A stretch of 64,000 nucleotides of DNA, from the NCBI RefSeq assembly GCF_000758625.1, contig NZ_CP009283.1, positions 2,801,501 through 2,865,500 on the forward strand, in the 5' to 3' direction. Position numbers and translations under genes: made by a program. Source of the DNA: Paenibacillus sp. FSL R7-0273 (lineage in GTDB: Bacteria > Bacillota > Bacilli > Paenibacillales > Paenibacillaceae). Of this stretch, positions 28,279 through 49,674 are shown piece after piece; within the stretch, counting starts at the first letter, position 1; each line of letters starts with the position of its first letter. The notes under the pieces are model-generated. The model saw only the letters and a list, made by a program, of their open reading frames with translations. It searched no databases and had not been told where the DNA came from.

Positions 28279-28303
28279 CCCAAGCTGTACTAACAGCGAT
28301 ACT

Positions 28304-28342
28304 GATGAACCGTACCTTTTAAGGGCGGTTCATCTTTTTTTT
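28304..28342 (+). terminator. Terminator of the LacI-regulated operon
   Basis: GATGAACCG(T) from 28304 pairs with (G)CGGTTCATC ending at 28334, with a loop of about 11 bases, followed by eight Ts. It insulates the peptide cluster from the sugar operon. Confidence 0.85.
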
Positions 28343-28354
28343 ATGCTGAATTAA

Positions 28355-28390
28355 CTGTATTAATGAAGAATAATAAAGACATTAATACAG
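28355..28390 (+). promoter_or_regulatory. Perfect 11-bp inverted repeat upstream of the peptide-cluster promoter
   Basis: CTGTATTAATG (28355-28365) and CATTAATACAG (28380-28390) are exact inverse complements separated by 14 bases. No T run follows, so it is not a terminator. It lies about 60 bases upstream of the -35 box of the peptide operon, a good position for an activator or repressor dimer. No regulator gene is encoded inside the cluster. Confidence 0.65.
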
Positions 28391-28450
28391 ATAAATCATT
28401 ATATTTTATAAAAAAGAAATTTACCTAAAAATAATTATAATTGGATATGA

Positions 28451-28479
28451 TTGACAATTGGAAGGGGAGAAACTAATAT
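28451..28479 (+). promoter_or_regulatory. Sigma-A promoter of the peptide biosynthetic operon
   Basis: A consensus TTGACA (28451-28456), an exact 17-base spacer and TAATAT (28474-28479), in a very AT-rich stretch 66 bases before the precursor start. This is the best promoter match in the window. Confidence 0.8.
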
Positions 28480-28544
28480 AAGAACAACTCACATACTTAC
28501 ACATCGATTTTCTTTATGGATTATAGGGAAAGGAGGTGACAGAT

Positions 28545-28811
28545 ATGGCGGCAGTTGCTGTACAACAAACAGCAGGCTTATTTTCCGGCTTGCTCGAACG
28601 TATGGAGAATATTGATTTTGTTAAACAATTTGCCGATAACCCGGATGCTGCTTTGAGAGAAGCCGGATTGGGGATCAGCCTTGCTGACTTTACTAAGCAA
28701 TTAAGCGAGAATCCGCAATTATTTGAAGCGGTTGTCGGTAAGCTTTCCAATAATGTGGAGTTTATCAACAAATCGAACATTGCAATGAGTTCATGTGATC
28801 AGCCAAGATAA
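28545..28811 (+). CDS. Candidate RiPP precursor peptide (88 aa)
   Basis: A small peptide not recognised from any named family. The start was set at the ATG at 28545, which follows a perfect AAAGGAGGTG; the GTG at 28536 overlaps that site. Residues 1-70 look like a helical leader and contain two related segments, FADNPDAALREAGL (29-42) and LSENPQLFEAVVGKL (53-67), a D/E-N-P pattern reminiscent of Nif11/nitrile-hydratase-type leaders but not clearly one. The tail NVEFINKSNIAMSSCDQPR (70-88) is the likely core. It is polar, with one Cys (C84), two Ser just before it and a single Lys (K76). There is no double-glycine cleavage site. It is the first gene of the operon with three radical SAM enzymes, and a hairpin directly after it would favour excess precursor mRNA. 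Assignment as precursor is inference from size, position and context. Confidence 0.7.
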   Translation: MAAVAVQQTAGLFSGLLERMENIDFVKQFADNPDAALREAGLGISLADFTKQLSENPQLFEAVVGKLSNNVEFINKSNIAMSSCDQPR

Positions 28812-28830
28812 AATGTCTATTAACTGTTGA

Positions 28831-28864
28831 GCTGAGTATGGGATCTTCTCCATACTCAGCTTTT
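28831..28864 (+). terminator. Hairpin after the precursor gene (probable leaky terminator or processing site)
   Basis: A perfect 11-bp stem GCTGAGTATGG/CCATACTCAGC (28831-28841 and 28850-28860) with an 8-base loop and only four Ts, followed at once by the ribosome site of the next gene. Such elements between RiPP precursors and their enzymes usually allow partial readthrough and stabilise the precursor message. Confidence 0.75.
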
Positions 28865-28883
28865 AATTAAGGGAGCTGAATGT

Positions 28884-29759
28884 ATGGATGCGGAAATCTA
28901 CAGTACAGCTGCACTTTCCGATCTTGAGGAGATGTCACGGCTACAAATCCCGTTTATGAAAGAGCTGCCCGCTGAGCTTGAAGCATGGCATAGCGGACTA
29001 ATCAGATGGGAAGTACTCAAAATGAATGGCCTCATTATGGGATGTCACCGGACAGTGCTGCTTTCAGGATGGGGATTCTTATACGGGGTCTATGTCCGTC
29101 CTGAGAATCATAATATCTGGAGCTGTTATCAATTGGTCCAGCACACCGTAGACTCCCTTTCCGAATGTGTAACCGATGGCTTTATTACATGGATTGACGA
29201 CATGCCCTCCTGGAAATCGGTGATGATGAAGCGGCTGAAATTTAGTTCATCCGTCAGACCGGTCTACCGGCTGTTTTTTAAGGATGCCGGACTGCAGCGG
29301 CTGCGGCAGGCAGAGATTAAGGACAGCCTACTTCAGTGGCGGTGCGCTGTGCAAGGAGACAGTACCGCTATTGAGAGTCTAGCAGAAGCACAAAGCTCCT
29401 TTATTGATAGTGTCAATCTGAGCGGTGATTTTACCAATCCTGAATCAGGCTGGTTTGTCGGAGAGGATGAGCTGGGAATAGCCGCAGGCATCCGCTGGTG
29501 TATTTATGGAGATACATTGTTCGCAATGTTTACACTTTCCTCCAGACCTGAACTGGACATCACGGCGGCTATTGTAGAATTGCTGGCTGTGCTGAACCGC
29601 GACGGGCTAACTACATATAGAATAAACCTGGAGCATCAGCGGAAAATCACGCTCCTTCGTCTTTCGGGATTCTCGCCGTATACCAATGAGTGCGGCCATG
29701 AAACCCACTATCTTTTCAAATCCGTTAAAGGAAATGTCCTATGCGAAACTATAAGGTAA
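28884..29759 (+). CDS. Tandem GNAT-like acyltransferase (cluster enzyme)
   Basis: A 291-residue protein not closely recognised. Both halves have the strand-helix pattern of GNAT folds: the first with GWGFLYGVYVRPENHNIW then a long helix and FITWIDDMPSWKSVMMKRLKF, the second with SGWFVGEDELGIAAGIRW and LFAMFTLSSRPELDI followed by TYRINLEHQRKITLLRLSGF. The acetyl-CoA pyrophosphate loop (Q/RxxGxG) is not preserved in either half, so acyl-CoA may not be the donor. A carrier protein is encoded three genes downstream, which suggests transfer of a carrier-bound acyl or aminoacyl group to the peptide. GGGAG precedes the ATG by 8 bases. It overlaps the next gene by 19 bases. The fold assignment is tentative. 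Confidence 0.5.
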   Translation: MDAEIYSTAALSDLEEMSRLQIPFMKELPAELEAWHSGLIRWEVLKMNGLIMGCHRTVLLSGWGFLYGVYVRPENHNIWSCYQLVQHTVDSLSECVTDGFITWIDDMPSWKSVMMKRLKFSSSVRPVYRLFFKDAGLQRLRQAEIKDSLLQWRCAVQGDSTAIESLAEAQSSFIDSVNLSGDFTNPESGWFVGEDELGIAAGIRWCIYGDTLFAMFTLSSRPELDITAAIVELLAVLNRDGLTTYRINLEHQRKITLLRLSGFSPYTNECGHETHYLFKSVKGNVLCETIR

Positions 29760-31087
29760 TTCTGGTCAATCTTAATTCACTGCCGAATCTGGGATTCAGT
29801 CCGGTTTTCCCGGTAGGTGCCAATTACGTATGCTCACTGTTATCCGAAATGGGCGCAGAAGTTGATTTTATCGATTTTGTGCAGCGGCCGGACTTGCTGG
29901 AAACGCTGGATTTTTTGGAAAAAGAGTTCGACTGCATCGCATTCTCCATCAGAAACCTGGATTCCATGGAGCTGGACGGTGAATATCTGGTAGATTATTA
30001 TCTGAAAATCACAACCTTAATTATAGAGCAGGGCAGGCAACGGAATCCCGATGTGAAAATTCTTCTGGGAGGAAGCGCCTTTACCGCCTACCCTAAAGGA
30101 TTTGCTGAAGTATTTCCCTTTGATGCCGCTATAGACAGCGATACAGAGGAACGGTTATTCCAGTTTATCACTGGCCATATCGAAGAAATGCAAAATGATC
30201 AGCTTGCTGGTATTGGCAGTACCTGTCCTGAACGGTTTGCCTTCGAAATTAAGTATCAACCGGAGCTTGTGAAGGCTTATCTGGCAATTGGGGCGAAGCA
30301 GATCGGCATTCCAACCCGGTGCGGAGGCCGATGTCCGATGCAGTGCATTTATTGCTCTTACGGTTTGCTTGACCAGAATACCCATTATACCCGGCCTCTG
30401 CACCTTTTGCGTAATGAAATTATCCAGCTCTATCAAATCGGCGTAAGAGAGCTGTTCTTTACTGATTCTCTAATCAATATTTCACCTGGGCATGCCCGGA
30501 ATCTTTGTCTATTGCTGATTGAGCTTAATCTGCCGGAGCTTGAATGGACTGCATATGCCAGGCCGACCCGCAATGAAGAGTTTTTGAGGCTGGCGGCTCT
30601 TTCAGGCTGTAAGACCTTAAGTGTTTCGTTCGATACCTTTTCTCCCGCTATGCTGACAAACTTGAAAAAAGGCTTTTCTGTTCATACCATCAGCAGATTC
30701 ATAGCATTGTGCGCCGAATACAGAGTAAATCTTGTAGGTCTGCTGTTATTCGGCGGTCCCGGAGAAACAGAGCTGACTATTAAAGAAACCTGCGAGTTTG
30801 CCAACCGGTTTCTGGAGCCGGGTCAGCTTTTCTTTTCCTTTGGGATAAGGATCTCACCGGGAAGCGGACTGGAAACGCTGCTTGGGCAAACGGGCAATGA
30901 CCTGCTTATTCCGCACTTTCTGGGCTTCGATGAACGGATTTTTGACTTTGTGCTGACTCACCTGGACGGCAGATTCATTTCAATGAACCTTCTGCTCAAA
31001 ATCAGTAAATGGAGAGCAGCCTATAAGGCGATGACTTGTAAACAAACAGCACACCCCCAGCTCTCTATGGTCTGCCCAGAAAGCTGA
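29741..31087 (+). CDS. B12-binding-domain radical SAM enzyme (cluster enzyme)
   Basis: A 448-residue radical SAM protein. Residues 1-145 form a cobalamin-binding-like Rossmann domain (VILVNLNSLPNLGFSPVFPVGANYV, FDCIAFSIRNLDSMEL, KILLGGSAFTAYP) without the DxHxxG lower-ligand motif. The 4Fe-4S motif is C198, C202, C205 in CPMQCIYC (C194 lies four before). SAM-binding and barrel elements follow (ELFFTDSLINI, TLSVSFDTFSP, GLLLFGGPGETE). Members methylate unactivated carbons or do other B12-dependent radical chemistry on peptides and small molecules. The start follows AAAGGA and overlaps the GNAT-like gene by 19 bases. The substrate here is presumably the precursor peptide or the carrier-bound unit. 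Confidence 0.85.
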   Translation: MRNYKVILVNLNSLPNLGFSPVFPVGANYVCSLLSEMGAEVDFIDFVQRPDLLETLDFLEKEFDCIAFSIRNLDSMELDGEYLVDYYLKITTLIIEQGRQRNPDVKILLGGSAFTAYPKGFAEVFPFDAAIDSDTEERLFQFITGHIEEMQNDQLAGIGSTCPERFAFEIKYQPELVKAYLAIGAKQIGIPTRCGGRCPMQCIYCSYGLLDQNTHYTRPLHLLRNEIIQLYQIGVRELFFTDSLINISPGHARNLCLLLIELNLPELEWTAYARPTRNEEFLRLAALSGCKTLSVSFDTFSPAMLTNLKKGFSVHTISRFIALCAEYRVNLVGLLLFGGPGETELTIKETCEFANRFLEPGQLFFSFGIRISPGSGLETLLGQTGNDLLIPHFLGFDERIFDFVLTHLDGRFISMNLLLKISKWRAAYKAMTCKQTAHPQLSMVCPES

Positions 31088-31112
31088 GCTCCTGAAAAGA
31101 GGTGCAATCCGG

Positions 31113-32567
31113 ATGTACACATTTAATGACTACTTGGAGCTATGGGCCGGGAGCAGCGGCGGCAATCCTGCGGTGGCCGATGCCGAGCAGGAGCTGACTT
31201 ACAGTATGCTGCTGTGTAAGGTGCGCGAGCTGCAGGGCTATTTGCACTCACAGGGCTTGCACGAGGGGGATATTGTGGGGATATCGGCTCCGCGCAGTGT
31301 TTCCCTTGTCCTCCTGTATGTGGCTGCCATGGGACTTGGACTGTCTGTCGTTCCGCTTCCGGAGCAGGCAGCGGAAATCCGGCTGCAACAGATTTTATCC
31401 CTGATCCCGGTGAACGTTCTCATTCAATACGAAGGATACAGCCAGCCGGGCAGCAGGTCCTATGTAATAAGCAGAATCAGGCCTGCTAATGACGGCTATA
31501 TAAAAGAAACGGACAATGCGTTTATTCCATATCAATTGAACAACAGCTATGCAGGCTATACGTACTCCCCGTCAGAGGCCAATGCCAGTTACTATAATCT
31601 CACCTCAGGCTCTACCGGCGGAGTTAAAGCGGTAAGAACAGGGAGCCGGGAGATTATTATAAATGCGCTGCTTGTCAGCGAGCGTCTCCCTCTTAACACA
31701 GAAGACTGTTACTGCTGTCTGTTTGCCCCGGATATGCATCCCCATGAACTATTTACCAGACCTCTGCTGTTCGGAGCCCGGTGTCTGTTGTTAGCCAATC
31801 ACGAATTACGGAGCTTCGGGCATCATATGCGTGAGCGCCGGCTGACCCATTTGCTGGCTACTCCGCACACCTTGTCAAACCTGCTGAAAATATGCCAGAG
31901 CCGGGAAGACTGGCAGAGCATTAAATTCCTGCTGGGGACCGGGGAGAACGTTCCATATGACCTTAGGTTCAAATTCTATAGCAGGACGGGAAAAAAACTG
32001 ATTTCGGTATGGGGATGTACAGAGACAACGGGGATTGTACTGGTAATGCCTGAAGCTTTATTTCTGGAGGAAGGGGCTATACTGGGGCTTCCTGTGCCCG
32101 GATATGAGCTGATGATTGAACCGGAATGCGGTGAATTGCTGATACGCGGGGATAGCGTAATGAAGGGCTATTGGAATTATGAGGAACAGCAGCCTGTTGA
32201 TAAGGACGGCTACTATCATACGGGAGATACTGTTACCTGTCATCCTGGTGGTGTACTGGGGTTTACCGGCAGGACAGATTCTTTCATTAAAGCGGCGGGG
32301 AGAAAAATTTCACTGCATGAGCTGGAACAGCAAGTCCGGAGCCTGCCGGGTATAGCGGAAACAGCTGCAGTCTATTCGGATACAAGCCACACTGTAGGCA
32401 TTTTTTACTCGGTAAATACGGAATCAGGCAACCTGTACCCTGACATTCTTCTGCTGCTGAATGATGTCCTTACGCCTACTAAATTCCGTGTTATCCAATG
32501 TGCCGGATTGCCGAAGCTTACCAGCGGTAAAGTAAACAGAAAAGAACTGCAAGCAAAGCTTGAATAG
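31113..32567 (+). CDS. Free-standing adenylation (AMP-forming ligase) enzyme
   Basis: A 484-residue member of the acyl-CoA synthetase/NRPS adenylation superfamily. Core motifs: TSGSTGG phosphate loop at residues 164-170, SVWGCTETTG (A5), YHTGDT (A7), GRTDSFIKAAGRKISLHELE (A8) and the catalytic lysine K473 in LTSGKVNRKEL (A10). All catalytic residues are present. It is slightly short, consistent with a stand-alone enzyme that loads a separate carrier protein, encoded 12 bases downstream. The substrate-pocket code cannot be read safely by eye; the pocket lacks the obvious Asp of alpha-amino-acid A domains, so a carboxylic acid or non-alpha amino acid is possible. GAGGTG precedes the ATG. Confidence 0.85.
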   Translation: MYTFNDYLELWAGSSGGNPAVADAEQELTYSMLLCKVRELQGYLHSQGLHEGDIVGISAPRSVSLVLLYVAAMGLGLSVVPLPEQAAEIRLQQILSLIPVNVLIQYEGYSQPGSRSYVISRIRPANDGYIKETDNAFIPYQLNNSYAGYTYSPSEANASYYNLTSGSTGGVKAVRTGSREIIINALLVSERLPLNTEDCYCCLFAPDMHPHELFTRPLLFGARCLLLANHELRSFGHHMRERRLTHLLATPHTLSNLLKICQSREDWQSIKFLLGTGENVPYDLRFKFYSRTGKKLISVWGCTETTGIVLVMPEALFLEEGAILGLPVPGYELMIEPECGELLIRGDSVMKGYWNYEEQQPVDKDGYYHTGDTVTCHPGGVLGFTGRTDSFIKAAGRKISLHELEQQVRSLPGIAETAAVYSDTSHTVGIFYSVNTESGNLYPDILLLLNDVLTPTKFRVIQCAGLPKLTSGKVNRKELQAKLE

Positions 32568-32579
32568 GGGGCGCCCGGT

Positions 32580-32828
32580 ATGATATCCCAGGAATTTATT
32601 TATGAGCTTTTAGAACGTAAATTTTCTGTACAAACGGCAGGGATTCATAAAGACTCGAAGCTGCGGGATTTGGGTCTCGACAGCTTTGATATTTTCTTTT
32701 TCGTTGCAGAGCTGGAGAACAGGCTCGGCTGTAGTATTCCTGATCAGGATTTACTGTCTTTTCAGCGGCTTGGTGATGTCATTGACTATATGAATCGTAA
32801 TCAGGTGAAGGCGGGGGATAACGCTTGA
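32580..32828 (+). CDS. Acyl/peptidyl carrier protein
   Basis: An 82-residue carrier protein with the phosphopantetheine attachment site S35 in LRDLGLDSFDIFFFVAELE. The four-helix layout and acidic surface (DSKLRDLGLD, ELENRLGCSIPDQDL) are normal. It lies between the adenylation enzyme and a radical SAM enzyme, so it most likely carries the activated unit during radical modification or transfer. A phosphopantetheinyl transferase is not encoded in the window and would be a host enzyme. It ends in TTGA, overlapping the TTG start of the next gene. Confidence 0.9.
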   Translation: MISQEFIYELLERKFSVQTAGIHKDSKLRDLGLDSFDIFFFVAELENRLGCSIPDQDLLSFQRLGDVIDYMNRNQVKAGDNA

Positions 32829-33850
32829 ATAAAGATGAAATCATTCAGTTCTTAACGGCAGACGGAGAAGAGCAGCAGATGCTTTATGAAACAGCGAGAG
32901 GTGTCAGAGATAAGCAGTTTCCGGAAGGAGTCTGTATTAGAGGTGTCGTTGAGGTATGTAATCTTTGCCTGTGCAATTGCGATTATTGCCCGATGCGGCG
33001 GGATAATCTTAAAAACAACTCGCTGTTTACATTGAACGAGGAGGGAATTCTGGGTGCGGTTGAGCAAATGACGGATTGCGGAATCCGTACAGTGTTCCTG
33101 CAGGGCGGGGAAAATCCGGCAAATACCCGGGTAGCGGGAGGCGCTATCCGCAAAATCCGCTCCATGTACCGGGATGAAGTGAATATTATTCTGAACCTGG
33201 GTGTGAAGACGGCGGCAGAGTATGCGTACTTATACGAGCAGGGTGCGAACGGTTATATTCTCAAATTCGAAACAAGTGACCCCATCAATCATGAGCGGCT
33301 CCGGCATGAGGCTTTGGATAAAAGGATTGAGGCGATTCAGCTGCTGCTTGAGACCGGTTATGAGGTGGGCACCGGAATGATTATCGGTTTGCCCGGCCAG
33401 ACCATCGACAGCATCGCTGACGATATTCTGTTGGCTAAATCACTGAAGGTGCATATGTGCAGTGTGTCGCCTTTTTTGCCTGCAGCGCACACTCCGCTTG
33501 AGCGTTACAGCAGCGGTTCGATTGATCTGTCACTGAATGCTATATCTATTATGCGGATTTTACATCCGGAATGGCTGATTCCTTCCGTAAGCGCCCTGGA
33601 AAAAATCAGGATAGGAGGGCAAATTGCCGGACTGAATGCCGGAGCCAATGTAATCACGGTTAACTACACGCCCAAACAGGAATCCGGGAAATATCATATC
33701 TACGGTGAAAACCGGTTTGTAGTGACCCTCGGGCATGCTTTGCAGACCATAGCAGGCGCCGGTCTTCAGGCTGCCGCTGATTTACGCAAGCCGGCAGCAG
33801 GACCGAATGCTATTTCTAAGGAGACCAATCATGAGAGTATACCAAGCTAA
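32825..33850 (+). CDS. HydE/PylB/BioB-like radical SAM enzyme (cluster enzyme)
   Basis: A 341-residue radical SAM protein of the BioB/HydE/PylB branch. The cluster motif is C48, C52, C55 within CNLCLCNCDYC, with extra cysteines C45 and C50. The HydE-like blocks RTVFLQGGENPANT, LKFETSDPINHERLRH, GYEVGTGMIIGLPGQT and SVSPFLPAAHTPLE are easily matched to the HydE pattern. There is no hydrogenase or pyrrolysine gene here, so it is a paralogue recruited for another small-molecule rearrangement or desaturation, possibly on the carrier-bound unit. It starts with TTG (AAGGCGGGGG about 7 bases upstream), overlapping the carrier stop, and overlaps the next gene by 20 bases. Confidence 0.85.
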   Translation: MNKDEIIQFLTADGEEQQMLYETARGVRDKQFPEGVCIRGVVEVCNLCLCNCDYCPMRRDNLKNNSLFTLNEEGILGAVEQMTDCGIRTVFLQGGENPANTRVAGGAIRKIRSMYRDEVNIILNLGVKTAAEYAYLYEQGANGYILKFETSDPINHERLRHEALDKRIEAIQLLLETGYEVGTGMIIGLPGQTIDSIADDILLAKSLKVHMCSVSPFLPAAHTPLERYSSGSIDLSLNAISIMRILHPEWLIPSVSALEKIRIGGQIAGLNAGANVITVNYTPKQESGKYHIYGENRFVVTLGHALQTIAGAGLQAAADLRKPAAGPNAISKETNHESIPS

Positions 33851-35372
33851 GTCTTCACTGATTCTGGCCGATCAGGCGGTGCGGAATGCAGGAGCGCCTG
33901 CCGGGCTTCCGTTGAACCCGTCCTACTATGTACGTGACACTGAGAATAGAAGGACAACGGTATTGGAAGCAGAGTCCTTCAGCTTATTGAGAGAGCTGAT
34001 CCTGCCTTTGCAATACGATGAGCTGCTAAACCGCTACGGGGAGAACGAAGAGGAGCTTCAGGCAGTTTTAGACTGGCTGACTGCCCAGGATTTCTTATTA
34101 TTGAATGACGGGCCGGCTTCCGGGCAGGCGAGGCTGCTCACTGGCAGCTCCGAAGAGCGTCTAAAGGGAATACCGCTGATTCCCCGGACCATTATGTTCA
34201 ACTGTACCCCTAAATGTAATTTGCGCTGCAAGCACTGCATTGTATCTGACAAGCATTATAAGCAGCAGGATATTCTGCGGTTCGAGGATATACAAGCTTT
34301 CCTGGACGAAGCAGATGCCTGCGGTGTGGAGAATATAGTGCTGTCAGGCGGAGAGCCTTTGCTGTGGCAATCGATCTATACCGTTATTGAGGATTCTTTG
34401 AATAGAAGCTACACGGTAATTCTATATACCAACGGCATGCTCATCAATGAGAAGTGGCTGACCTTGTTCCGGAGCATACAGGAGCAAAAACCCGGCGGCT
34501 TAAAGCTGCATGTTTCCCTGGATGGAGGAACTCCGTTAACACATGACGGTGTCCGGGGCGTCACTGGAAGCTTTAACCGGATCATCGGCTCACTGGAGCA
34601 GCTTAACGGCCGGGGAATACCTGTTGCTGCCGTTGAAAGTATGGCTACAGCGGAGCTGTATCCTGAACTGGATTCGTTAATCACCATTTGCCGCGAGAAT
34701 GGCGTCGGGAGTCTGTATCTGCACCCCGTATTCAACTTTGACCGGAATCCGCAAATACAAGAGCTGGAGCTGGAGTGGGACAGCCGGCTCCGTTACTTGC
34801 ATAGAGTCAGCGAGCTTTCCGGCCTGGAGCTTGGAGTCGAGCTACATTACAGCGACCCCTATTTTCCCGCGGGACTCTTTCAAGAGAAGCCCTCCATAGC
34901 CCGGAAGAACGCCGAAGCTTTCTTAAACGGCATTCTCAGCGGAAACCGCATGGAGAGCGGCAATTATGATGTTGTTAAAAGGGATAAGAATGTCTTAACG
35001 AATTGTGATGGCGGTGTGAGCCAGATGTTTGTTGATTACAACGGGGATGTGTATCCTTGCATGATTTATGCGAATTCGGCCCGTCCTGTTGATCACTGCG
35101 GAAATGTTACCCGGAATTCGCTGCTTGAAGTCTGGAATTCCGAGGGGATGAACCGGGTAAGAAAAGTAATGAACCGCAATGAGCTGACGGTCTGCAGCCA
35201 ATGTGAACATTTTGACCAATGCGGGCCGACTGTCAAGAAGTGCAGAATCGCTTCTGAGATTGCTTTGGGTGATTTTTTCGGGCCATCCTATTTATGTGTA
35301 AGATATGCTGCGCAGCTGGGAATCGCCCCTGAATTGCTTACTTCCTACCGGCAAGAGCTTCTTAATAAGTAG
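33831..35372 (+). CDS. SPASM radical SAM peptide maturase with RRE-like N-terminus
   Basis: A 513-residue enzyme. The start at 33831 follows AAGGAGACC; a longer frame from 33807 lacks a ribosome site. Residues about 1-95 look like a PqqD-like RiPP recognition domain (YYVRDTENRRTTVLEAESFS, YDELLNRYGENEEELQAVLDWL). The radical SAM motif is C129, C133, C136 in CNLRCKHC, followed by NIVLSGGEPLLW. The C-terminal SPASM region is rich in cysteines (NCDGGVSQMFVDYNGDVYPC, CSQCEHFDQCGPTVKKC) and can bind two auxiliary Fe-S clusters. Such enzymes form thioether, ether or C-C crosslinks in peptides such as sactipeptides and ranthipeptides. The single core Cys of the precursor is a possible site. This gene is the strongest evidence that the cluster makes a peptide product. 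Confidence 0.88.
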   Translation: MRVYQAKSSLILADQAVRNAGAPAGLPLNPSYYVRDTENRRTTVLEAESFSLLRELILPLQYDELLNRYGENEEELQAVLDWLTAQDFLLLNDGPASGQARLLTGSSEERLKGIPLIPRTIMFNCTPKCNLRCKHCIVSDKHYKQQDILRFEDIQAFLDEADACGVENIVLSGGEPLLWQSIYTVIEDSLNRSYTVILYTNGMLINEKWLTLFRSIQEQKPGGLKLHVSLDGGTPLTHDGVRGVTGSFNRIIGSLEQLNGRGIPVAAVESMATAELYPELDSLITICRENGVGSLYLHPVFNFDRNPQIQELELEWDSRLRYLHRVSELSGLELGVELHYSDPYFPAGLFQEKPSIARKNAEAFLNGILSGNRMESGNYDVVKRDKNVLTNCDGGVSQMFVDYNGDVYPCMIYANSARPVDHCGNVTRNSLLEVWNSEGMNRVRKVMNRNELTVCSQCEHFDQCGPTVKKCRIASEIALGDFFGPSYLCVRYAAQLGIAPELLTSYRQELLNK

Positions 35373-35858
35373 ATGGGGCCGCCGATGAATGCTGCAAAAG
35401 GAAAGAAGAACGGGCGGCTGTGGAACGGATTCTCTTATCTGTTTATCCGAACGCCGCTAGCGGCCTTGCTGATCATTGCAGGACTATGCGGAGGCTTATA
35501 CATTTGGGCGGACAGCCTCCTTCTGCAACATTATGTAACGGTCAGCGGCTCGGCATCTGTGTCGGGGGAATATATGCTTGTACGCTTAAAGGGGAATTAT
35601 GACAGCTCCTATATTGATATCCGCGATACTGCAAGCTGGTACTTAAGTGCGGACGGAGGACGATATACGGGAACGGTCGTAGCGGTACAGGCTGAAGCGG
35701 GCGGGAGTACTGTCGAGCTTGAAATCAGCCGCAGCCAATGGACCCGGGCCAATACAGAATCCGGTAAGACACTTTCCGGAGAGCAGGTCTTTGTGGAAAT
35801 TCCCCAGGGGCAACGAAGCTTGTGGTTCAAAATGATTTATAAGGGAGAACGCCTATGA
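35373..35858 (+). CDS. Single-pass membrane protein of the export module (short membrane-fusion-like)
   Basis: A 161-residue protein with a basic N-terminus, one membrane helix (about residues 28-50, PLAALLIIAGLCGGLYIWA) and an extracytoplasmic beta-rich remainder ending GQRSLWFKMIYKGERL. This tail resembles the last beta-barrel part of HlyD-type fusion proteins, but the coiled-coil hairpin and lipoyl domain are missing. It is not confidently assigned. The ATG directly follows the maturase stop; an ATG at 35385, preceded by GGGG, is an alternative start. It overlaps the first exporter gene by 4 bases (ATGA), so a role with the exporters, or as an immunity protein, is likely. Confidence 0.5.
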   Translation: MGPPMNAAKGKKNGRLWNGFSYLFIRTPLAALLIIAGLCGGLYIWADSLLLQHYVTVSGSASVSGEYMLVRLKGNYDSSYIDIRDTASWYLSADGGRYTGTVVAVQAEAGGSTVELEISRSQWTRANTESGKTLSGEQVFVEIPQGQRSLWFKMIYKGERL

Positions 35859-37639
35859 GGAAAACAATGTATACGCAGATGAAACCGCTGTGGCCAATTA
35901 TCCGCCGGTACAGGTGGAGTTTCATCAATTTGTTCATTTGCGTTGTAGTTACTTCTGTCATCGGCATGGTTTATCCCTATATCTTCGGAATGCTTATAGA
36001 TGAAGTGTTCTATCAGAGGAACCTCCAGTTCTTGAAATATATCGTAATTTTGTATGGCGCTGTTTTCGCCGGAGAGCAATGCCTGCATATCTGCTTCAAC
36101 AGTGCCTGGGCTTATCTGGCTACCCGGTTCTCGTTTGATATCCGTAAGAGGCTTTATGATAAGCTGCTGTCACTGCGGCCGGCATTTTTCACTGCAAGCA
36201 AATCCGGTGATCTTATGACTATTATCAACAGGGATACCGAAGAAATTTTGGCCTTCATCCATCTGAACGTTTTTTTTCTTGCAGCTAATATCCTCCGTTT
36301 GCTGACAGCAGTAGCTTTTGTGCTGTATGCAAGCTTCTATTTAGGGCTTCTGATGCTGGTGGCCGTTCCGGCGGTTGTTTTTGTTACGGTAATGTTTAAC
36401 CGCAGATTACGGACCAGACTGACGGAGCAGAGAGAGCAATATGGCACACTGATGAGCTGGTGCTTTGAAATGCTGGCAGGCTTGCAGGATATCAGGCTGC
36501 TGGGAGCCGGAAAGTACAGCTCCAGAACATTTGTACATATGCTGATCCAATATATGCGTGTTAAGAACAGCTCAAGCAAGCTGGAATGGATCTCTGAAAG
36601 AACGATAGGTTTAATCAGCCTCTGCTCTGACCTCGCCTTGTATGTTACGGCATGCTATCTCATTATCCATCAGCAGCTGACGCTCGGCGTTTTTATTGCA
36701 AGTATGGAATACTTCTCCAAGGGTGGTGAGCTGCTGCAAAGAATCAGCGGCGCAAGCCGCAGCATTCAGCGCAATAAAGTGGCGATAGACCGGGTTATCT
36801 CTCTGCTGCAGGAGCCTGAAGAGAATAAGGGATCAGACTTACCCGGTCTGAGGGTAACAAAGGGAAATATCGAATTTGACAACATTTCCTTCAGCTATAA
36901 CCCCGAAACTCCGGTTTTACTGAACCTGAGCCTCGCTCTGGAGGGAGGAACGACGGTGGCTCTTGTAGGCAAAAGCGGAAGCGGGAAGACTACGCTGGCT
37001 TCTCTGCTGCTGGGTCTCTATCAACCCGAATCGGGTGAAATCAGGGTTGACGGAACCCTCATCAGCCGATGCAGCCTGCGATCCCTTCGTCAGGCAGTCA
37101 GCACCAACGCACAGGAAACCTTTCTCTTTGCAGGCACACTGCGCGAAAATTTACTTTGGGGAAGCGTTTATCAGGCGGACAAGGCACTGTGGACTGCTTG
37201 TGAACAGGCATTCATTTCAGAATACATACGGACACTGCCCGAGGGCTTGGACACCTTGATTGAAGGAGACCGCGGACTGAGAATGTCGGAGGGACAAAAG
37301 CAGCGCATATCTCTGGCGCGCTCTTTTTTGCGGCCAGCTCCGATCATTATATACGATGAGGCTACCTCGGCACTCGACGGTGAAGCAGAGAAGGCTGTGC
37401 GGGCCCAATGGAATAACCTTGGCGGGAGCAGGACGGCTATTGTTATTGCCCACCGGCTGTCCACGATATTAAGCGCTGACAAGGTAGCGGTCCTGGATAA
37501 CGGGCGGATCGTTGCTTATGATCATCACTTGCGGCTGTTGTCTGACAGTGAAATCTACCGCCGGCTTTTTTATGAGCAATATGCTGAAAACGGATTGGGG
37601 ATGAATCATGAAGAAACTGCAGCACAGTATCAGGCTTAA
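35855..37639 (+). CDS. ABC half-exporter (TMD-NBD), first of two
   Basis: A 594-residue fused permease-ATPase of the exporter type. Six-helix membrane domain from about residue 20 to 320; NBD from about 340. Walker A is GKSGSGKTT, the signature is the degenerate MSEGQKQR instead of LSGGQ, Walker B is IIIYDEATSALD, and the switch His is in IAHRLS. There is no N-terminal C39 peptidase domain, so it cannot cut the leader. The next gene is a second, different half-exporter overlapping by 32 bases, so the pair probably forms a heterodimer that exports the mature peptide and may give self-protection. Confidence 0.9.
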   Translation: MRKTMYTQMKPLWPIIRRYRWSFINLFICVVVTSVIGMVYPYIFGMLIDEVFYQRNLQFLKYIVILYGAVFAGEQCLHICFNSAWAYLATRFSFDIRKRLYDKLLSLRPAFFTASKSGDLMTIINRDTEEILAFIHLNVFFLAANILRLLTAVAFVLYASFYLGLLMLVAVPAVVFVTVMFNRRLRTRLTEQREQYGTLMSWCFEMLAGLQDIRLLGAGKYSSRTFVHMLIQYMRVKNSSSKLEWISERTIGLISLCSDLALYVTACYLIIHQQLTLGVFIASMEYFSKGGELLQRISGASRSIQRNKVAIDRVISLLQEPEENKGSDLPGLRVTKGNIEFDNISFSYNPETPVLLNLSLALEGGTTVALVGKSGSGKTTLASLLLGLYQPESGEIRVDGTLISRCSLRSLRQAVSTNAQETFLFAGTLRENLLWGSVYQADKALWTACEQAFISEYIRTLPEGLDTLIEGDRGLRMSEGQKQRISLARSFLRPAPIIIYDEATSALDGEAEKAVRAQWNNLGGSRTAIVIAHRLSTILSADKVAVLDNGRIVAYDHHLRLLSDSEIYRRLFYEQYAENGLGMNHEETAAQYQA

Positions 37640-39404
37640 GCTGCATTACATCAAGGCTTTCAAGGCTGAACTGCAGCCCCGCCGTTATGAGCTGGGTATG
37701 CTTGCCGGTTTTAAGGTGCTGCTGCTTGGTTTAGGGCTGGTTTCACCTTTACTGTTCAAGCTCCTGATTGACAGGGTTATCGTTCAGCAGGATTTAAAGG
37801 CGCTTTGGCTGATTTGTTCCGGTTATGCTGCTGTATATATTATGCAGTCTGCCGTCACGGGCGGACAAACCTTTGTAGGCAACAAATTTACGAATCGTGT
37901 GACGTTTGCTGTACGTACAGCTTTATGGGACAGATATCTTAACATGCCGCTCAGTACTTATTGCCAGCTGAACACAGGCGATTTAAAGGGCAGAATAGAC
38001 CAGGATACGGATGCAGTGGACCGTTTGTTCAAGGTGCAGCTGATGGAATACGCCTATAGCTTTGCATACCTGCTGGCGGGTGCTGCCATGATGGCGGTTT
38101 TCAGCTGGAAGCTGGCACTGGTCGCTTTGCTTATGGTGCCTGTCTCCTTCTGGATTACAAGCAAACTTGGTATCCGGGCAAGAGAGGTTTCTACAAGCTA
38201 CCGGCAGATTTACGGGGAGTATGAAGGATGGCTGCAGCAATCCATCCAAAGCTGGCGGGAAATTAAGATCAACCGGATGGAGAAGCGGAGTTCACTCAAA
38301 TTCACGGGGTATTGGCATGCGATGAGCAAAGTGTTTTTTCAAAAAGAAATGTACTGGTTTCTCAACCGTGTCCTTCAGGAGTTCAAGGACCTTTTTATTA
38401 CAAGAATGAATCTGTATTTTCTCGGCGGACTGCTGATCTTCCACGGGGAAATGACGATTGGCGGGCTGCTGGTCTTTATGAAGTATTATGAAATGCTGTT
38501 TACGCAATTAAGAGCCATCAACGATTTTGATATGCAGTTTAACGGCGATGTGCCCGGTCTTGAAAAAATCAGCTCCATGCTGGCAGAAACGCCAGATACG
38601 AAAAATACAACTAGAGTGAAGCCAGCGGCAGATCAGAATCATCTTCCTGTCCTGCAATTTAAAAACGTTTCTTTCTATTATAATGTTGAAGGTTCCGCTG
38701 TGCTGAGGGATATATCCTTTGCTGTTCAACCCGGGGCGAGGATAGCCATTGTCGGCAGGAGCGGCTCCGGTAAAAGCACAATAATCAAATTGATGCTCAG
38801 AATCTGTCAGCCTTTTCATGGCAGCATCCAACTGGGCGGGCGTGAGCTACAGCAGATTGGTGAAGCCGAATTGCGTAAATCCTTCGGTGTCGTCATGCAA
38901 AATCCGGCCATTTTTAATATGTCTATCCTGGAGAATGTCAAGCTGGCCAGGCCGGCTGCCTCAACAGCGGAAATTAAAGAAGCCTGCAGGCTGGCCGAGA
39001 TGGAAGAGTATATCGGAAAGCTGACCCATGGCTATGATACAGTGATCGGAGAAAAGGGGGTACAGCTGTCCGGTGGACAAAAGCAGCGGCTTGCCTTGGC
39101 CAGAGTGCTGCTGTCGGATGCCAAAATCATTATTTTGGACGAAGCGACCTCTATGCTTGATCATATCACTGAGGCAGCCGTTCATCAGACCTTTGCCAAG
39201 CTGCCGTCTGACCGTACCGTAATTATCATTGCCCACCGGCTTTCCTCAGTAATGTACGCGGATGAAATTCTGTTGCTGGACAACGGGCAGATCGCGGATC
39301 AGGGCAAGCATCAGAAACTATGGATGGAGAATACCCTCTACCGGCTGCTGTTTGAAAATGGAGCGGGATCAAGCGGTCCCGTTGTAGCGGCTAACCGGAC
39401 TTAG
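37608..39404 (+). CDS. ABC half-exporter (TMD-NBD), second of two
   Basis: A 598-residue fused permease-ATPase. The membrane domain spans about 30-310. The NBD has Walker A GRSGSGKST, canonical signature LSGGQKQRLALARVLL, Walker B IIILDEATSMLD and switch His in IAHRLSSV. No peptidase domain. The canonical signature here against the degenerate one in its partner fits a heterodimeric exporter with one less active ATP site. It is the last gene of the peptide operon, followed by a terminator. Confidence 0.9.
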   Translation: MKKLQHSIRLKLHYIKAFKAELQPRRYELGMLAGFKVLLLGLGLVSPLLFKLLIDRVIVQQDLKALWLICSGYAAVYIMQSAVTGGQTFVGNKFTNRVTFAVRTALWDRYLNMPLSTYCQLNTGDLKGRIDQDTDAVDRLFKVQLMEYAYSFAYLLAGAAMMAVFSWKLALVALLMVPVSFWITSKLGIRAREVSTSYRQIYGEYEGWLQQSIQSWREIKINRMEKRSSLKFTGYWHAMSKVFFQKEMYWFLNRVLQEFKDLFITRMNLYFLGGLLIFHGEMTIGGLLVFMKYYEMLFTQLRAINDFDMQFNGDVPGLEKISSMLAETPDTKNTTRVKPAADQNHLPVLQFKNVSFYYNVEGSAVLRDISFAVQPGARIAIVGRSGSGKSTIIKLMLRICQPFHGSIQLGGRELQQIGEAELRKSFGVVMQNPAIFNMSILENVKLARPAASTAEIKEACRLAEMEEYIGKLTHGYDTVIGEKGVQLSGGQKQRLALARVLLSDAKIIILDEATSMLDHITEAAVHQTFAKLPSDRTVIIIAHRLSSVMYADEILLLDNGQIADQGKHQKLWMENTLYRLLFENGAGSSGPVVAANRT

Positions 39405-39410
39405 TGACAC

Positions 39411-39438
39411 AGGCAGCTCTGACGGGCTGCTTTTTTTT
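39411..39438 (+). terminator. Terminator of the peptide biosynthetic operon
   Basis: GCAGC (39413-39417) pairs with GCTGC (39426-39430) with flanking G-T pairs, followed by eight Ts. Confidence 0.75.
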
Positions 39439-39566
39439 GTTGTGATGGTTTATTTAAAAAATGAAGGATTTAACTGCATTGCTGTCGAATATACGGTTCG
39501 GATATATGCAGCTGAATTTGTTAATAGTAAATCTGTAAATAAATAATATAGAAGCGAGGAACAGAC

Positions 39567-42983: not shown

Positions 42984-45047
42984 GTGTATACATTTAAAGA
43001 CTACAAGCAGCCTGAAATCCTCCGCAATCATTTAAAGCTTGGAGGCGCCAATCCGGCTGGAGAGACAATTGATGTAACGAGTTTATATATTACGCGGGAC
43101 GGCAAGCCGATCATTCCGGTAACAGGCGAATTCCATTATTCCAGATATGCCAGAGAAGACTGGTATGATGAGCTGTGCAAAATGAAAGCAGGCGGTGTAA
43201 CGCTTGTATCTACGTATGTGTTCTGGATTTACCATGAGGAGATTGAGGGCGTATTCGACTTCTCCGGCGACAATGATGTGCGTGCTTTTATACTGGAGTG
43301 CCAGAAGGCCGGCCTGGAGGTTGTCCTGCGGATCGGTCCCTGGGCGCATGGCGAATGCAGAAACGGCGGGTATCCGGATTGGCTGCTTGCGAAGCCGTTC
43401 AAGCTGCGCGAGAATAATCCGCAATACCTGGAGAAGGTAACGATCCTGTATGAGAAAATCGCCGAGCAGGTGCAGGGACTCTTTTACAAGGATGGGGGGA
43501 ATATCATTGCCGTCCAGTTAGAGAATGAGCTGACGAATGATGCCGAGCATCTGGCTAAACTGAAGGAGCTGTCCATAGCGTGCGGAATGATTGCCCCTAT
43601 TTATACAGTAACGGGCTGGAATGCGGTCTCCGGTGCCAAGATTCCTGTAGACGAAGTGGTTCCTGTATTCGGAGGCTACTGTGAAGCTCCATGGGAGGAG
43701 CATATGGACCCGCTTCCGCCGTCACCCCATTATTTCTTTACCGGGATGCGTAACGATACGGGTATAGGGGCAGATCTCCTTCCCCGGGGAAACGAAGAGA
43801 ATGGTGAATGGCAGCTGCCGTATGAACGGTATCCTTTTGCGACCTGTGAGCTCGGCGGAGGGCTGCAGGTAACCCATCACCGCAGACCGATCATCCGCGA
43901 GATGGATATCTACGCCATTTCACTTGTAAAGCTTGGTGACGGCAATAACCTGATCGGTTACTACATGTATCATGGCGGGACGAACCAGATCGGCACACTG
44001 TCCACCTTCAATGAGTCAAAGGCAACGGGCTATCCGAACGATTATCCGATACTTTCCTATGATTTTCAGACTGCTCTCTCCGAGTATGGTGAGGTGCGCG
44101 GGCAGTACAGGCTGCTGAATCTGCTGCATCTGTTTGTGCAGGACTTTGACCAGACCCTGGCACCTATGACCAGAGTAGAGGCCGAGCATACAGTAAAACG
44201 GGAAGATACAGCCTCCTTGCGGTATGTAATGCGTACAGACGGTACAAGCGGATTTGTATTTATCAACCATTACCAGCGGCTGTCGCAGCTTGAAGATATC
44301 CGCGGGGCGGTAATTAATACAGGAACCGTCACTTTCCCGCCGATTGATGTTTGCGGAGATGTCAGCTTCTTTATGCCGTTCAAGCTGGAGCTGTCAGGCA
44401 ATATTCTGGAGTATGCAACGGCCCAGCCGCTGTGCAGACAAGGTGATACCTATTTCTTCGCACAGATTCCGGGAATTGCTGCTGAATATCAGTTTGAGAA
44501 CGGGCAGGGCTTCACGCCTGAAGCAGGATTAGAGTCCGGATTCCAGTTGAACAGCATTACCGTAATCACGCTCACTTGGGAACAGGCGAAATATTTGCGG
44601 AAGCTGGATAATGAGATTTATGTAGGTGACAAGTGTGATCTGTACAAAGCCGATGGCGAAATCAGATCTGCAGCAGCAGGAGACTTCGGGTACTGGCTCT
44701 GGAACGGGGCGGGCTTTGAACTGAGTACTGTCCAGAAGCCTTACACAGAGCCTGTCTTCTTGCTTGAAGCGGTTCCACAGCCTCCTTTTGAAGCCAAGTA
44801 TGCAGAGGAGCTCCATATCGGCGGCGGGCGCAGGATCACCTGGCAGAAAATAACGGTTACAGGCTCCCAAGGCTTCGTTAATCTTGATTATTACGGTGAT
44901 GCAGCACAGATCTATGCCGATGGGGAATTAGTCGCGGACAGCTACTATTATGGAGAAGTATGGAGAGTGCCGGCCAAGCTGCTGGAGGGAAAAGAGTGTT
45001 ATCTTGCAGTCTCTGAAATGCGGGATGATTTCTATAGAGAGTTTTAG
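42984..45047 (+). CDS. Beta-galactosidase, glycoside hydrolase family 35
   Basis: A 687-residue cytoplasmic enzyme (no signal peptide) cleaving terminal beta-galactosides. GH35 features: PVTGEFHYSRYAREDW near residue 45, LRIGPWAHGECRNGGYPDWL near 115, the acid/base E182 in IIAVQLENELTND, and the nucleophile E289 in CELGGGLQV. The starting GTG (42984) follows GAGAGGAAG. A beta-sandwich C-terminal region completes the protein, and it ends at a strong hairpin terminator. The GH27 alpha-galactosidase is the next complete gene, so this region deals with galactose-containing oligosaccharides. Confidence 0.9.
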   Translation: MYTFKDYKQPEILRNHLKLGGANPAGETIDVTSLYITRDGKPIIPVTGEFHYSRYAREDWYDELCKMKAGGVTLVSTYVFWIYHEEIEGVFDFSGDNDVRAFILECQKAGLEVVLRIGPWAHGECRNGGYPDWLLAKPFKLRENNPQYLEKVTILYEKIAEQVQGLFYKDGGNIIAVQLENELTNDAEHLAKLKELSIACGMIAPIYTVTGWNAVSGAKIPVDEVVPVFGGYCEAPWEEHMDPLPPSPHYFFTGMRNDTGIGADLLPRGNEENGEWQLPYERYPFATCELGGGLQVTHHRRPIIREMDIYAISLVKLGDGNNLIGYYMYHGGTNQIGTLSTFNESKATGYPNDYPILSYDFQTALSEYGEVRGQYRLLNLLHLFVQDFDQTLAPMTRVEAEHTVKREDTASLRYVMRTDGTSGFVFINHYQRLSQLEDIRGAVINTGTVTFPPIDVCGDVSFFMPFKLELSGNILEYATAQPLCRQGDTYFFAQIPGIAAEYQFENGQGFTPEAGLESGFQLNSITVITLTWEQAKYLRKLDNEIYVGDKCDLYKADGEIRSAAAGDFGYWLWNGAGFELSTVQKPYTEPVFLLEAVPQPPFEAKYAEELHIGGGRRITWQKITVTGSQGFVNLDYYGDAAQIYADGELVADSYYYGEVWRVPAKLLEGKECYLAVSEMRDDFYREF

Positions 45048-45064
45048 GTTTAGCTTATGTGATA

Positions 45065-45104
45065 ACAAGCTGCTTCTGTCTGTTGACAGGGGCAGCTTGT
45101 TTTA
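45065..45104 (+). terminator. Terminator after the GH35 gene
   Basis: A 16-bp stem ACAAGCTGCTTCTGTC/GACAGGGGCAGCTTGT (45065-45080 and 45085-45100) with two G-T pairs and a TGTT loop, then TTTAT. Confidence 0.8.
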
Positions 45105-45115
45105 TGTGCTCAGCA

Positions 45116-45229
45116 TTACATCCGGTACATCTTATCCAGCTGCTGCTTGCGGTATTGCGACGGGTTGACGCCGAAGCAGCCGGTGAACCGCCGCGAGAAG
45201 TAATCGGGAGAATGAAAGAAGCTGGAGGA
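45116..45229 (-). pseudogene. Remnant of an AraC-family regulator C-terminus
   Basis: The minus strand reads FFHSPDYFSRRFTGCFGVNP, then SQYRKQQLDKMYRM and a stop. This is the end of the second AraC helix-turn-helix (consensus GFxSxxYFSRxFKxxxGxSPxxYR). It is preceded in frame by a stop (TAA at 45232-45230), and no upstream frame restores an AraC domain. It is therefore a 37-codon leftover of a deleted regulator between GH35 and GH27. The rest of the gap 45048-45365 shows nothing else beyond the terminator. Confidence 0.75.
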
Positions 45230-45365
45230 TTAGCAACATGCCTCCATCTAAAAGCAACGCCAAGCCATGGGCTTGGCCCGCAGCCTGTGATTAAATACAT
45301 ACAGGCGCAGCAGATTAAAGGAGCTTTATTCTGCTTAACTGCTTAAATGAAGGGATGATGAACAG

Positions 45366-46526
45366 ATGCAGGGTCAACAGCTGGGACTAACCCCGCCTAT
45401 GGGATGGAATTCGTGGAACACGTTTACTTGGGATATTAATGAACGGCTGATCCGTGAGGCGGCAGATATATTAGCCTCGGAAGGCTATAAGGAAGCCGGA
45501 TATGAGTACATTGTAATCGACGACTGCTGGAGTCTGAAGGAGAGGGCTGAAGACGGCAGCCTTGTGGCTGATCCGGATAAATTTCCAGGCGGAATGAAGG
45601 CCCTTGCCGATTATATCCATTCCAAGGGGCTGAAATTTGGAATGTATTCCTGTGTGGGAACACATACCTGTGCCGGCTATCCCGGCAGCTTCGAGCATGA
45701 GTTCCAGGATGCAGCGCTGCTGGCGGAATGGGGAGTGGATCTATTAAAATACGATTATTGCTTTAAGCCCAGACATGTGTCGGGAGAGCTCCTGTACAAA
45801 CGGATGAGTCTGGCGCTTAAAAATTGCGGCAGAGATATTCTGTTCTCGGCCTGCAACTGGGGCGAGGACAATGTGTATCACTGGATTCGTGAATCAGGCG
45901 CGCACATGTACCGCTCTACGGTTGACATACAGGACAGCTGGGATTCTATCAAAAGCCTGACGCTGTCCCAGCTGGATAAGGCCAGCAGTACAGGTGCCTT
46001 TTGCCACAATGATCTGGATATGCTGGTTGTCGGCATGTACGGTACCTCTAACAGCGGCTTTATCGGCGCAGCCATCGGCGGCTGCAATGATATTGAATAT
46101 AAAACGCATTTTTCACTATGGAGCCTTATGGGCTCTCCGCTGATGATGGGCAATGATATCCGGAAGGCCAGCCGGGCGGCGAAGGATATTCTGATGAACA
46201 AGTCTCTGATCGCTATTAATCAGGATATTGAAGGCCGGGGAGCCTACCGGATCAAGCCTGAGCCCCAGTGGTTCCATACAGATGAGGTCTTTATGCTGGT
46301 AAAAGTTTTGACTGACGGCGATCTGGCGATAGGCTTCTTTAATCTGAGTGACGGACAAAAGGAAATCTCCCTGCAGTTTTGGGATCTGGGGCTTCCCTAT
46401 GCTTCCGGCAAAGCATTGTCTTTGTATGATTGCTGGGAGCATAAGGAGCTCGGCGTATTCAAGGAAAGATATGCTCCGGTTGTGGCAGCCCATGATTGTG
46501 TAGTTGTACGGGCCAAACTGGTTTAG
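45366..46526 (+). CDS. Alpha-galactosidase, glycoside hydrolase family 27
   Basis: A 386-residue cytoplasmic retaining enzyme that removes alpha-galactosyl residues. Hallmarks: TPPMGWNSWNTF at residues 9-20, YIVIDDCWSLKERAEDG, FGMYSCVGTHTCAGYPGS, the nucleophile D130 in VDLLKYDYCF and the acid/base D187 in YRSTVDIQDSW. The C-terminal beta domain is short. No signal peptide, so it acts on imported oligosaccharides. GGGATGATG precedes the start. A small CxxC protein gene follows 11 bases later. An AraC regulator lies downstream on the other strand. Confidence 0.92.
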   Translation: MQGQQLGLTPPMGWNSWNTFTWDINERLIREAADILASEGYKEAGYEYIVIDDCWSLKERAEDGSLVADPDKFPGGMKALADYIHSKGLKFGMYSCVGTHTCAGYPGSFEHEFQDAALLAEWGVDLLKYDYCFKPRHVSGELLYKRMSLALKNCGRDILFSACNWGEDNVYHWIRESGAHMYRSTVDIQDSWDSIKSLTLSQLDKASSTGAFCHNDLDMLVVGMYGTSNSGFIGAAIGGCNDIEYKTHFSLWSLMGSPLMMGNDIRKASRAAKDILMNKSLIAINQDIEGRGAYRIKPEPQWFHTDEVFMLVKVLTDGDLAIGFFNLSDGQKEISLQFWDLGLPYASGKALSLYDCWEHKELGVFKERYAPVVAAHDCVVVRAKLV

Positions 46527-46537
46527 AGAGAGCCTTG

Positions 46538-46735
46538 ATGAAGAGAACCTGCCTGCGCTGTGATGTCCCGTTACAGTCTGACGATGTAGCCATCTATCTA
46601 AAGCTTGTCTCCAGAGCCTCTAAAGATTTTTTGTGCATCGATTGTCTGGGTGCTAAGCTGAACTGCGGCAGGGAGCCTATCGAAAAGCTGATCAACTATT
46701 TCAGGGAATCCGGGAATTGTGTTCTTTTCCGTTAA
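46538..46735 (+). CDS. Small CxxC (zinc-ribbon-like) protein, 65 aa
   Basis: A short protein with two cysteine knuckles: TCLRCDVPLQSD at the start, DFLCIDCLGAKLNCG in the middle, then an amphipathic helix EKLINYFRESGNC. Probably a small zinc-binding protein; function unknown. AGAGAGAG precedes the ATG at 46538. It starts 11 bases after the GH27 stop and its 3' end overlaps the convergent AraC gene by 35 bases. Similar small CxxC proteins encoded next to glycosidases seem to be a recurring pattern, but I cannot name the family. Confidence 0.6.
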   Translation: MKRTCLRCDVPLQSDDVAIYLKLVSRASKDFLCIDCLGAKLNCGREPIEKLINYFRESGNCVLFR

Positions 46736-47567: not shown

Positions 47568-47640
47568 TCCATAGTTCACCTCACTCTAAAATTATGGCAT
47601 GAAAAAGAGAGAAATGCAGTAAAAATCAGCAAGCTTGAAC

Positions 47641-47670
47641 AAAGTCGCGAAATTTGCGACTTTTTTATTT
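47641..47670 (+). other. Terminator-like hairpin upstream of hflK
   Basis: A perfect 8-bp stem AAAGTCGC/GCGACTTT (47641-47648 and 47656-47663) with a 7-base loop and a T-rich tail on the plus strand. No plus-strand gene ends nearby, the closest being 900 bases away. It lies 65 bases before the hflK start, so it could be an attenuator or stop antisense transcription from the AraC gene. Confidence 0.5.
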
Positions 47671-47727
47671 TATTTACGTATATGTATCTTAATATAGGCT
47701 TAAATACGCAAAAAGGAGCGATGCATC

Positions 47728-49622: not shown

Positions 49623-49636
49623 CACTGAAAAAGGAA

Positions 49637-49674
49637 AAAGCAGCGGTTCTCCGTTAACGGAGGGCAGCTGCTTT
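49637..49674 (+). terminator. Bidirectional terminator between hflC and cdd
   Basis: Outer stem AAAGCAGC/GCTGCTTT (49637-49644 and 49667-49674), a four-base internal mismatch, and inner CTCCG/CGGAG with TTAA loop. It lies between convergent genes and can serve both. Confidence 0.75.

Follow-up and report, generated by a model that had tools for sequence, protein, structure and literature searches.

The question raised by this locus is whether a ribosomally made peptide and a unit activated on a carrier protein are brought together by one compact gene set that also encodes three different radical SAM enzymes. The locus lies in the window, the whole 64,000-nucleotide stretch of Paenibacillus sp. 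FSL R7-0273 that was analysed (NZ_CP009283.1, positions 2,801,501 to 2,865,500), and the positions below are those of the window except for the separate HydE and HydG genes and the Bradyrhizobium gene. Elsewhere in the window, three genes at 14581-18576 look by eye like a spore-germination operon, and 42984-60582 looks by eye to be a region for carbohydrate use that encodes glycoside hydrolases, a sugar ABC transporter and regulators. An Rfam search of the window gave no match.

A bounded island of ten colinear genes

The genes form a real and well-bounded RiPP-type island. All ten are colinear in Paenibacillus camerounensis (P. camerounensis) and P. tengchongensis, which gives three species including that of the window. 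The P. camerounensis copy is 89-97% identical at the protein level and has the same flanks as the window, while the P. tengchongensis copy is 55-83% identical and has different flanks. Two of the three species are close, so tests of conservation on this set are weak. The features are as follows.

28279..39551, no strand: the island; homology to two island-free relatives ends at 28278 and restarts at 39552
28451..28479, + strand: promoter-like site TTGACA-17-TAATAT, kept in P. camerounensis
28545..28811, + strand: A, an 88-aa precursor-like peptide, residues 70-87 invariant in the three species
28829..28862, + strand: strong hairpin with a T-rich stretch 3' of it, kept in 3/3 species
28884..29759, + strand: B, a 291-aa GNAT-like protein, possibly tandem, a proposed transferase (low-confidence structure model)
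29741..31087, + strand: C, a B12-binding radical SAM enzyme (Pfam domains)
31113..32567, + strand: D, a stand-alone adenylating enzyme (AMP-binding domain)
32580..32828, + strand: E, a carrier protein (PP-binding domain)
32825..33850, + strand: F, a HydE-like radical SAM enzyme with a TTG start and altered pocket residues (model scores and alignment)
33831..35372, + strand: G, a SPASM radical SAM enzyme (Pfam) with an RRE-like N-terminus (low-confidence structure model)
35373..35858, + strand: H, a small protein with one apparent membrane segment (by eye) and no family match
35855..37639, + strand: I, an ABC half-exporter without a peptidase domain (Pfam)
37608..39404, + strand: J, an ABC half-exporter without a peptidase domain (Pfam)
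39411..39432, + strand: terminator, folding at -13.2 kcal/mol (z -2.9)

The elements named in the original prediction (the 88-aa peptide, the hairpin, the packed + strand genes, the named enzymes and the terminator) are all present. The order on the + strand is peptide A, the hairpin, nine same-strand genes B-J and the terminator; the ten genes first placed behind the hairpin are thus nine, and ten is reached when peptide A is counted. Neighbouring genes 3' of the hairpin are separated by -32 to +25 bases. Over the Pfam cut-offs were radical SAM domains in C, F and G, a B12-binding domain in C, SPASM in G, AMP-binding in D, PP-binding in E, and ABC transmembrane and ATPase domains in I and J. 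Peptide A, B, H and the N-terminus of G had no family match above cut-off in Pfam or NCBIfam.

The island edges were compared with empty sites. The left neighbour was found at E 1e-60 in 4 other genomes of 60, and the regions of three of these (G022, G032 and G026) were compared. In G022 and G032, which lack the island, the left and right neighbour genes of the window lie side by side, separated by 0.9 and 0.5 kb of unrelated sequence. In G026, the right neighbours were not found within the 8 kb region taken. The longest word common to both island edges searched was 9 bases. The island is probably mobile or transferable. A wider operon that takes in the neighbour genes was also considered and rejected, because these genes differ, or adjoin one another without the island, in other genomes.

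The ten genes are inherited together. A, B and G are each present in the same 3/200 relatives, and Ka/Ks is at most about 0.31 for every gene in both species comparisons. The original prediction of a RiPP-type unit, in which an adenylating enzyme/carrier pair accompanies three radical SAM branches, is borne out by the co-occurrence of all ten genes in three species. It would have been contradicted if the set never occurred together elsewhere, and the colinear copy with other flanks in P. tengchongensis did not refute it.

The precursor-like peptide and its expression signals

A starts at 28545 and has a strong ribosome-binding site, AAAGGAGGTGA, upstream. Its residues 70-87, NVEFINKSNIAMSSCDQP, are identical in 3/3 species and are followed by a variable last residue. 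Compared with P. tengchongensis, this core has 8 synonymous and 0 replacement changes, and residues 1-69 have 28.5 synonymous and 16.5 replacement changes (Fisher P 0.04, with the leader counts rounded to 28 and 17). The comparison of the core with the pooled genes B-J gave P 0.01 by Fisher's test, the pooled counts being approximate. With three species of which two are close, the stronger constraint on the core is suggestive, not strong. A has a single cysteine (Cys84) and a single lysine in the core (Lys76) in 3/3 species, and no tryptophan occurs in the precursor. The A of the window gave four weak NCBIfam matches, three of which are NHLP-clan RiPP leader models, the best reaching 20.5 bits against a cut-off of 40.

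The island has what is generally expected of a RiPP cluster, namely a short precursor gene, a conserved core and co-inherited modifying enzymes. Judged from sequence, the RiPP assignment is well supported, because core residues 70-87 do not vary among the three species, the distant P. tengchongensis copy showing 8 synonymous changes and none of replacement type.

The predicted promoter fared less clearly. The region contains 21 promoter-like sites against 15.3 +/- 4.4 in shuffles, which is not clearly above chance; the site at 28451 is kept in both other species, its P. tengchongensis version being TTGACA-17-TAAGAT. The hairpin at 28829-28862 folds at -22.1 kcal/mol (z -5.3), and 0/200 shuffles were as good. 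It is a probable attenuator, and a conserved hairpin behind A would suit a precursor produced in excess over the enzymes.

The adenylating enzyme, carrier, B12-radical SAM enzyme and exporters

D has an aspartate at the amino-binding position in 3/3 species by alignment to LgrA, and because of this residue an amino-acid-like substrate appears likelier than a plain fatty acid. The specificity code of D, read by eye, is roughly D-M-H-L-L-T-V-G-I-K at positions that presumably follow GrsA numbering, and it matched no code that we could name. The carrier E keeps LGLDSF with the attachment serine in 3/3 species, and the genome has three PPTase-family matches.

Relatives of C were found at E 1e-25 in 12 further genomes of 200, and the six regions compared hold a different cluster. 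This conserved cluster, in six other genomes of the genus Paenibacillus (L092-L097), has two tandem B12-radical SAM relatives of C and several further genes, some of them weakly similar to the radical SAM protein F.

A peptidase domain on an ABC exporter, which NHLM-type export would require, was not found by Pfam in I or J, and no leader peptidase was found among the island proteins.

The GNAT-like protein B

The structure model of B is worse than that of G, with a mean pLDDT of 38.5. In a Foldseek search with this model, the best 50 of 1042 matches were mostly acetyltransferases, and 0/1042 reached E 0.001 (best 2e-3). Among the matches listed are VipF, which is a tandem GNAT, and a histidine acetyltransferase about 325 residues long. 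The label of tandem GNAT is consistent with these matches, but no family model in Pfam or NCBIfam was reached and the structure is of low confidence. The CoA-binding P-loop motif is absent from B in 3/3 species. Its absence may mean that the donor is a carrier, or that B has a different function.

The SPASM enzyme G resembles RiPP maturases

The most likely start of G is 33831, with AAGGAG upstream, in place of the mechanical start at 33807. G contains the CxxxCxxC motif and a SPASM domain, and its cysteine pattern fits what we take to be the SPASM region with one spacing altered. The structure model is poor overall (mean pLDDT 47.5). Foldseek matches of this model are led by SuiB, SkfB and the sactipeptide thioether enzyme 5why, which we take to be CteB, and 36 matches were at E <=0.001. 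Further matches include BlsE and viperins, among others. By its predicted structure G thus resembles RiPP maturases.

In the predicted model, residues 1-90 form strands and then three helices, with pLDDT 81-84 over residues 51-90. RRE domains are winged-helix domains, according to the relevant passages of PMC8326336, and the modelled residues 1-90 would fit a winged-helix RRE. In a second structural comparison, which covered mainly residues 112-371, the alignments with SkfB and TigE begin in the N-terminal part of the G model and have a high rmsd. As for B, the Foldseek matches agree with the originally assigned RRE label, but no family model was reached for the N-terminus in Pfam or NCBIfam.

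G was found at E 1e-25 in only 3/200 relatives, and tblastn of G against plasmids and phages gave no match. The sole PADLOC signal was viperin-like similarity of the radical SAM core of G.

F is a divergent relative of HydE

The best model for F is HydE, at 226.5 bits over residues 3-295 (cut-off 254.6), against 123 bits for PylB and 66 for BioB; 3-methyl-2-indolic acid synthase was absent from the best 25 of 32 models. T134, T268, T269 and M291 (TmHydE numbering, by alignment), which we take from their role in T. maritima HydE to be pocket residues, are identical in 47/47 HydE proteins examined. In F these residues are I, V, S and T in 3/3 species. Overall, F departs from HydE in 24/76 near-invariant columns. 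The same genome carries a separate HydE (3518362-3519243, 430 bits) and, about 9 kb from it, HydG (3527391-3528089, 377 bits), both over the NCBIfam cut-off. A function of F as a hydrogenase maturase was considered and rejected; a role in hydrogenase maturation is very unlikely, because the pocket residues are lost and a separate HydE and HydG are encoded elsewhere in the genome.

In a tree of 55 rows, F lies inside the HydE branch among clostridial HydE proteins with good support, well apart from PylB, with a stem length of 2.6 changes per column. A tree of 32 rows that includes a Bradyrhizobium protein gave no resolved place for F among HydE, and a single origin of HydE apart from F appeared in 24% of bootstrap trees. 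Support for pairing F with the Bradyrhizobium protein is 93/99, but both have long branches, and long branches may be paired falsely.

F-type proteins with at least 78% identity are present in 3/200 relatives. At E 1e-50, F had matches in 3/394 genomes of the family, a set that overlaps the 200 relatives, and in 88/398 phylum-wide genomes including its own, the best other match being 41% identical. All 19 phylum-wide loci examined have the HydE residues, and four further loci (L061, L062, L122 and L124) keep them as well. A scan of genome contigs with two F peptide patterns gave at least 7 loci, 2 of which are known cassettes; a scan of viral contigs gave no relative. The distribution of the island is narrow within the searched genomes, and its true distribution may be wider.

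The Bradyrhizobium protein is a HydE-like protein encoded on four plasmids, 36% identical to F and scoring 165.7 bits against the HydE model. Its gene lies at NZ_CP094524.1 168478-169698 (L057:14866-16086), and matches at 94-100% occur on the ISRA435, ISRA436 and ISRA437 plasmids. In the one copy aligned, I134, S269, T291 and CPMRRDN are common with F, and T268 is kept. K159 is found in this protein, in F and in 11/47 HydE proteins. At the 24 columns where F diverges, the protein is F-like in 7, HydE-like in 6 and neither in 11. The gene precedes one whose annotation is a radical SAM protein of the coproporphyrinogen oxidase family, and its other neighbours are sugar, methyltransferase and transport genes. 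The gene table for the 31 kb region, which is incomplete, lists no adenylating enzyme or carrier. The comparison suggests, but does not prove, a HydE branch that serves a role other than hydrogenase maturation.

Proposed pathway and alternatives

The reading we prefer, with a probability of about 0.5, is that of a transferable RiPP island in which a unit loaded on a carrier and modified by C and F would be moved by B onto a core modified by G. The sequences show the gene content, its joint inheritance, the constraint on the core and the divergence of F; the reactions we infer are as follows. G would bind the leader through its RRE-like domain and modify the core by radical chemistry, and the simplest product would be a thioether formed by Cys84, its sole cysteine. 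D would adenylate an amino-acid-like acid and load it onto carrier E. C, as a B12-radical SAM enzyme (for example by C-methylation), and F would alter the free or carrier-bound unit. B would then move the unit from E to the core, with Lys76 as the simplest acceptor and Cys84 or a new N-terminus as possible ones, and H, I and J would export the product. Overall, a carrier route like that to the nosiheptide side ring would be paired with a GNAT-type transferase like those of the selidamides. The order of steps and the acceptor are guesses. The poor structure models behind the GNAT and RRE labels count against the proposed pathway, as do the missing P-loop of B, the leader matches below cut-off, the lack of a peptidase in the island, the small set of species and, for nosiheptide, the NosK transfer that was not seen in vitro.

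A more tentative proposal is that F founds a functionally new branch of the HydE family whose radical chemistry takes place on an amino acid or on a thioester bound to a carrier instead of an organometallic iron complex. F would supply a non-canonical unit, a carrier-dependent GNAT would join this unit to the SPASM-modified ribosomal peptide, and the join would define a RiPP class; the Bradyrhizobium plasmid protein would be a second user in another pathway. This is possible, though doubtful.

Several modifying enzymes often work on one RiPP precursor, so C, F and G might all act on the peptide, with D, E and B contributing no more than a common amino acid or an acyl group taken from metabolism. 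To our knowledge, the substrates of characterised relatives of the HydE, PylB and BioB kind are small molecules, which speaks against this reading. Selidamide GNATs do draw fatty acids from primary metabolism, according to the relevant part of PMC9505594. Pfam found no peptide-binding domain in C or F, a weak objection since the RRE-like part of G escaped Pfam as well, and on balance we consider an action of all three enzymes on the peptide unlikely.

The peptide might instead be a scaffold on which the unit is appended and matured before it is cut off as a small molecule, as for pearlins. The absence of a peptidase domain from the island and a conserved tail that is short and ends in a variable residue would agree with this, but no PEARL-type ligase is found in the ten proteins, and 18 invariant residues are more than the end of a scaffold should require; we hold it to be quite improbable. 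It is more improbable still that the island is not a RiPP system, with the 88-aa protein serving as regulator or partner and the enzymes building a small molecule on the carrier. The leader matches are below threshold, and an adenylating enzyme with a carrier is by itself NRPS-like; against this, G looks like RiPP maturases, the constraint peaks towards the C-terminus, as it does for the cores of precursors, and the hairpin separates the peptide from the enzymes.

Comparison with known systems

The original prediction held that the locus matches no RiPP class and that its union of carrier and ribosomal logic is unprecedented. This was too strong: nosiheptide joins both, according to the relevant passages of PMC5585349. 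In that pathway, NosI loads an indolic acid made by a radical SAM enzyme onto the carrier NosJ, where NosN methylates it; NosK releases the acid and is thought to pass it to Cys8 of the peptide, a transfer not seen in vitro (PMC5585349). The proposed pathway is like the NosL/NosI/NosJ/NosK/NosN system in belonging to a RiPP, in having an acid made by a radical SAM enzyme, an adenylating enzyme and a discrete carrier, and in using another radical SAM enzyme on the acid while the carrier binds it and one more enzyme to release or transfer it (PMC5585349). An adenylating enzyme and a discrete carrier within a RiPP operon are likewise found in the island. In contrast to nosiheptide, the ten proteins include no thiopeptide azole and dehydration machinery and no NosL-type tryptophan lyase; F is HydE-like and C binds B12, the transferase candidate resembles GNATs instead of hydrolases, and the island has a SPASM maturase.

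The GNAT side also has precedent, since tandem GNATs that acylate NHLP- or Nif11-leader peptides are known (PMC13060382, PMC9505594, in the parts on these enzymes). In the selidamides, the acylated residue is lysine or ornithine (PMC9505594, PMC13060382), and NpuN is a predicted tandem GNAT in which the CoA P-loop is present (PMC13060382). The island resembles the selidamides and nostolysamides in having GNAT-like B beside a weakly NHLP-like precursor with Lys76 in the core. Unlike them, it has no lanthionine synthetase, B lacks the P-loop, and the island has its own adenylating enzyme, carrier and radical SAM enzymes.

With the RRE/SPASM or twitch maturases SuiB, SkfB and CteB, G shares a radical SAM core, a SPASM domain and, by its low-confidence model, a putative RRE-like N-terminus, whereas the island precursor differs from theirs in having one cysteine and no tryptophan. 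F is like HydE in matching its model and in sitting in the HydE branch and not that of PylB (55-row tree), but it differs in scoring below the model cut-off, in the replacement of four pocket residues and in the separate HydE and HydG of the genome. The HydE passages of PMC5682303 and PMC8326336 contain no HydE paralogue in a RiPP cluster. In a literature search that left most subscription journals outside its scope, no report was found of the ten-gene combination or of a HydE-like radical SAM enzyme in a biosynthetic gene cluster.

If the preferred reading is true, natural-product chemistry has drawn on the HydE fold, which has been studied in hydrogenase maturation, and the island is a compact ten-gene system in which ribosomal and carrier-protein biosynthesis meet; with its invariant core, the product can be searched for by mass. 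Each join has precedent in a known system. What is new is the combination together with the HydE relative, which is the most surprising part of the island.
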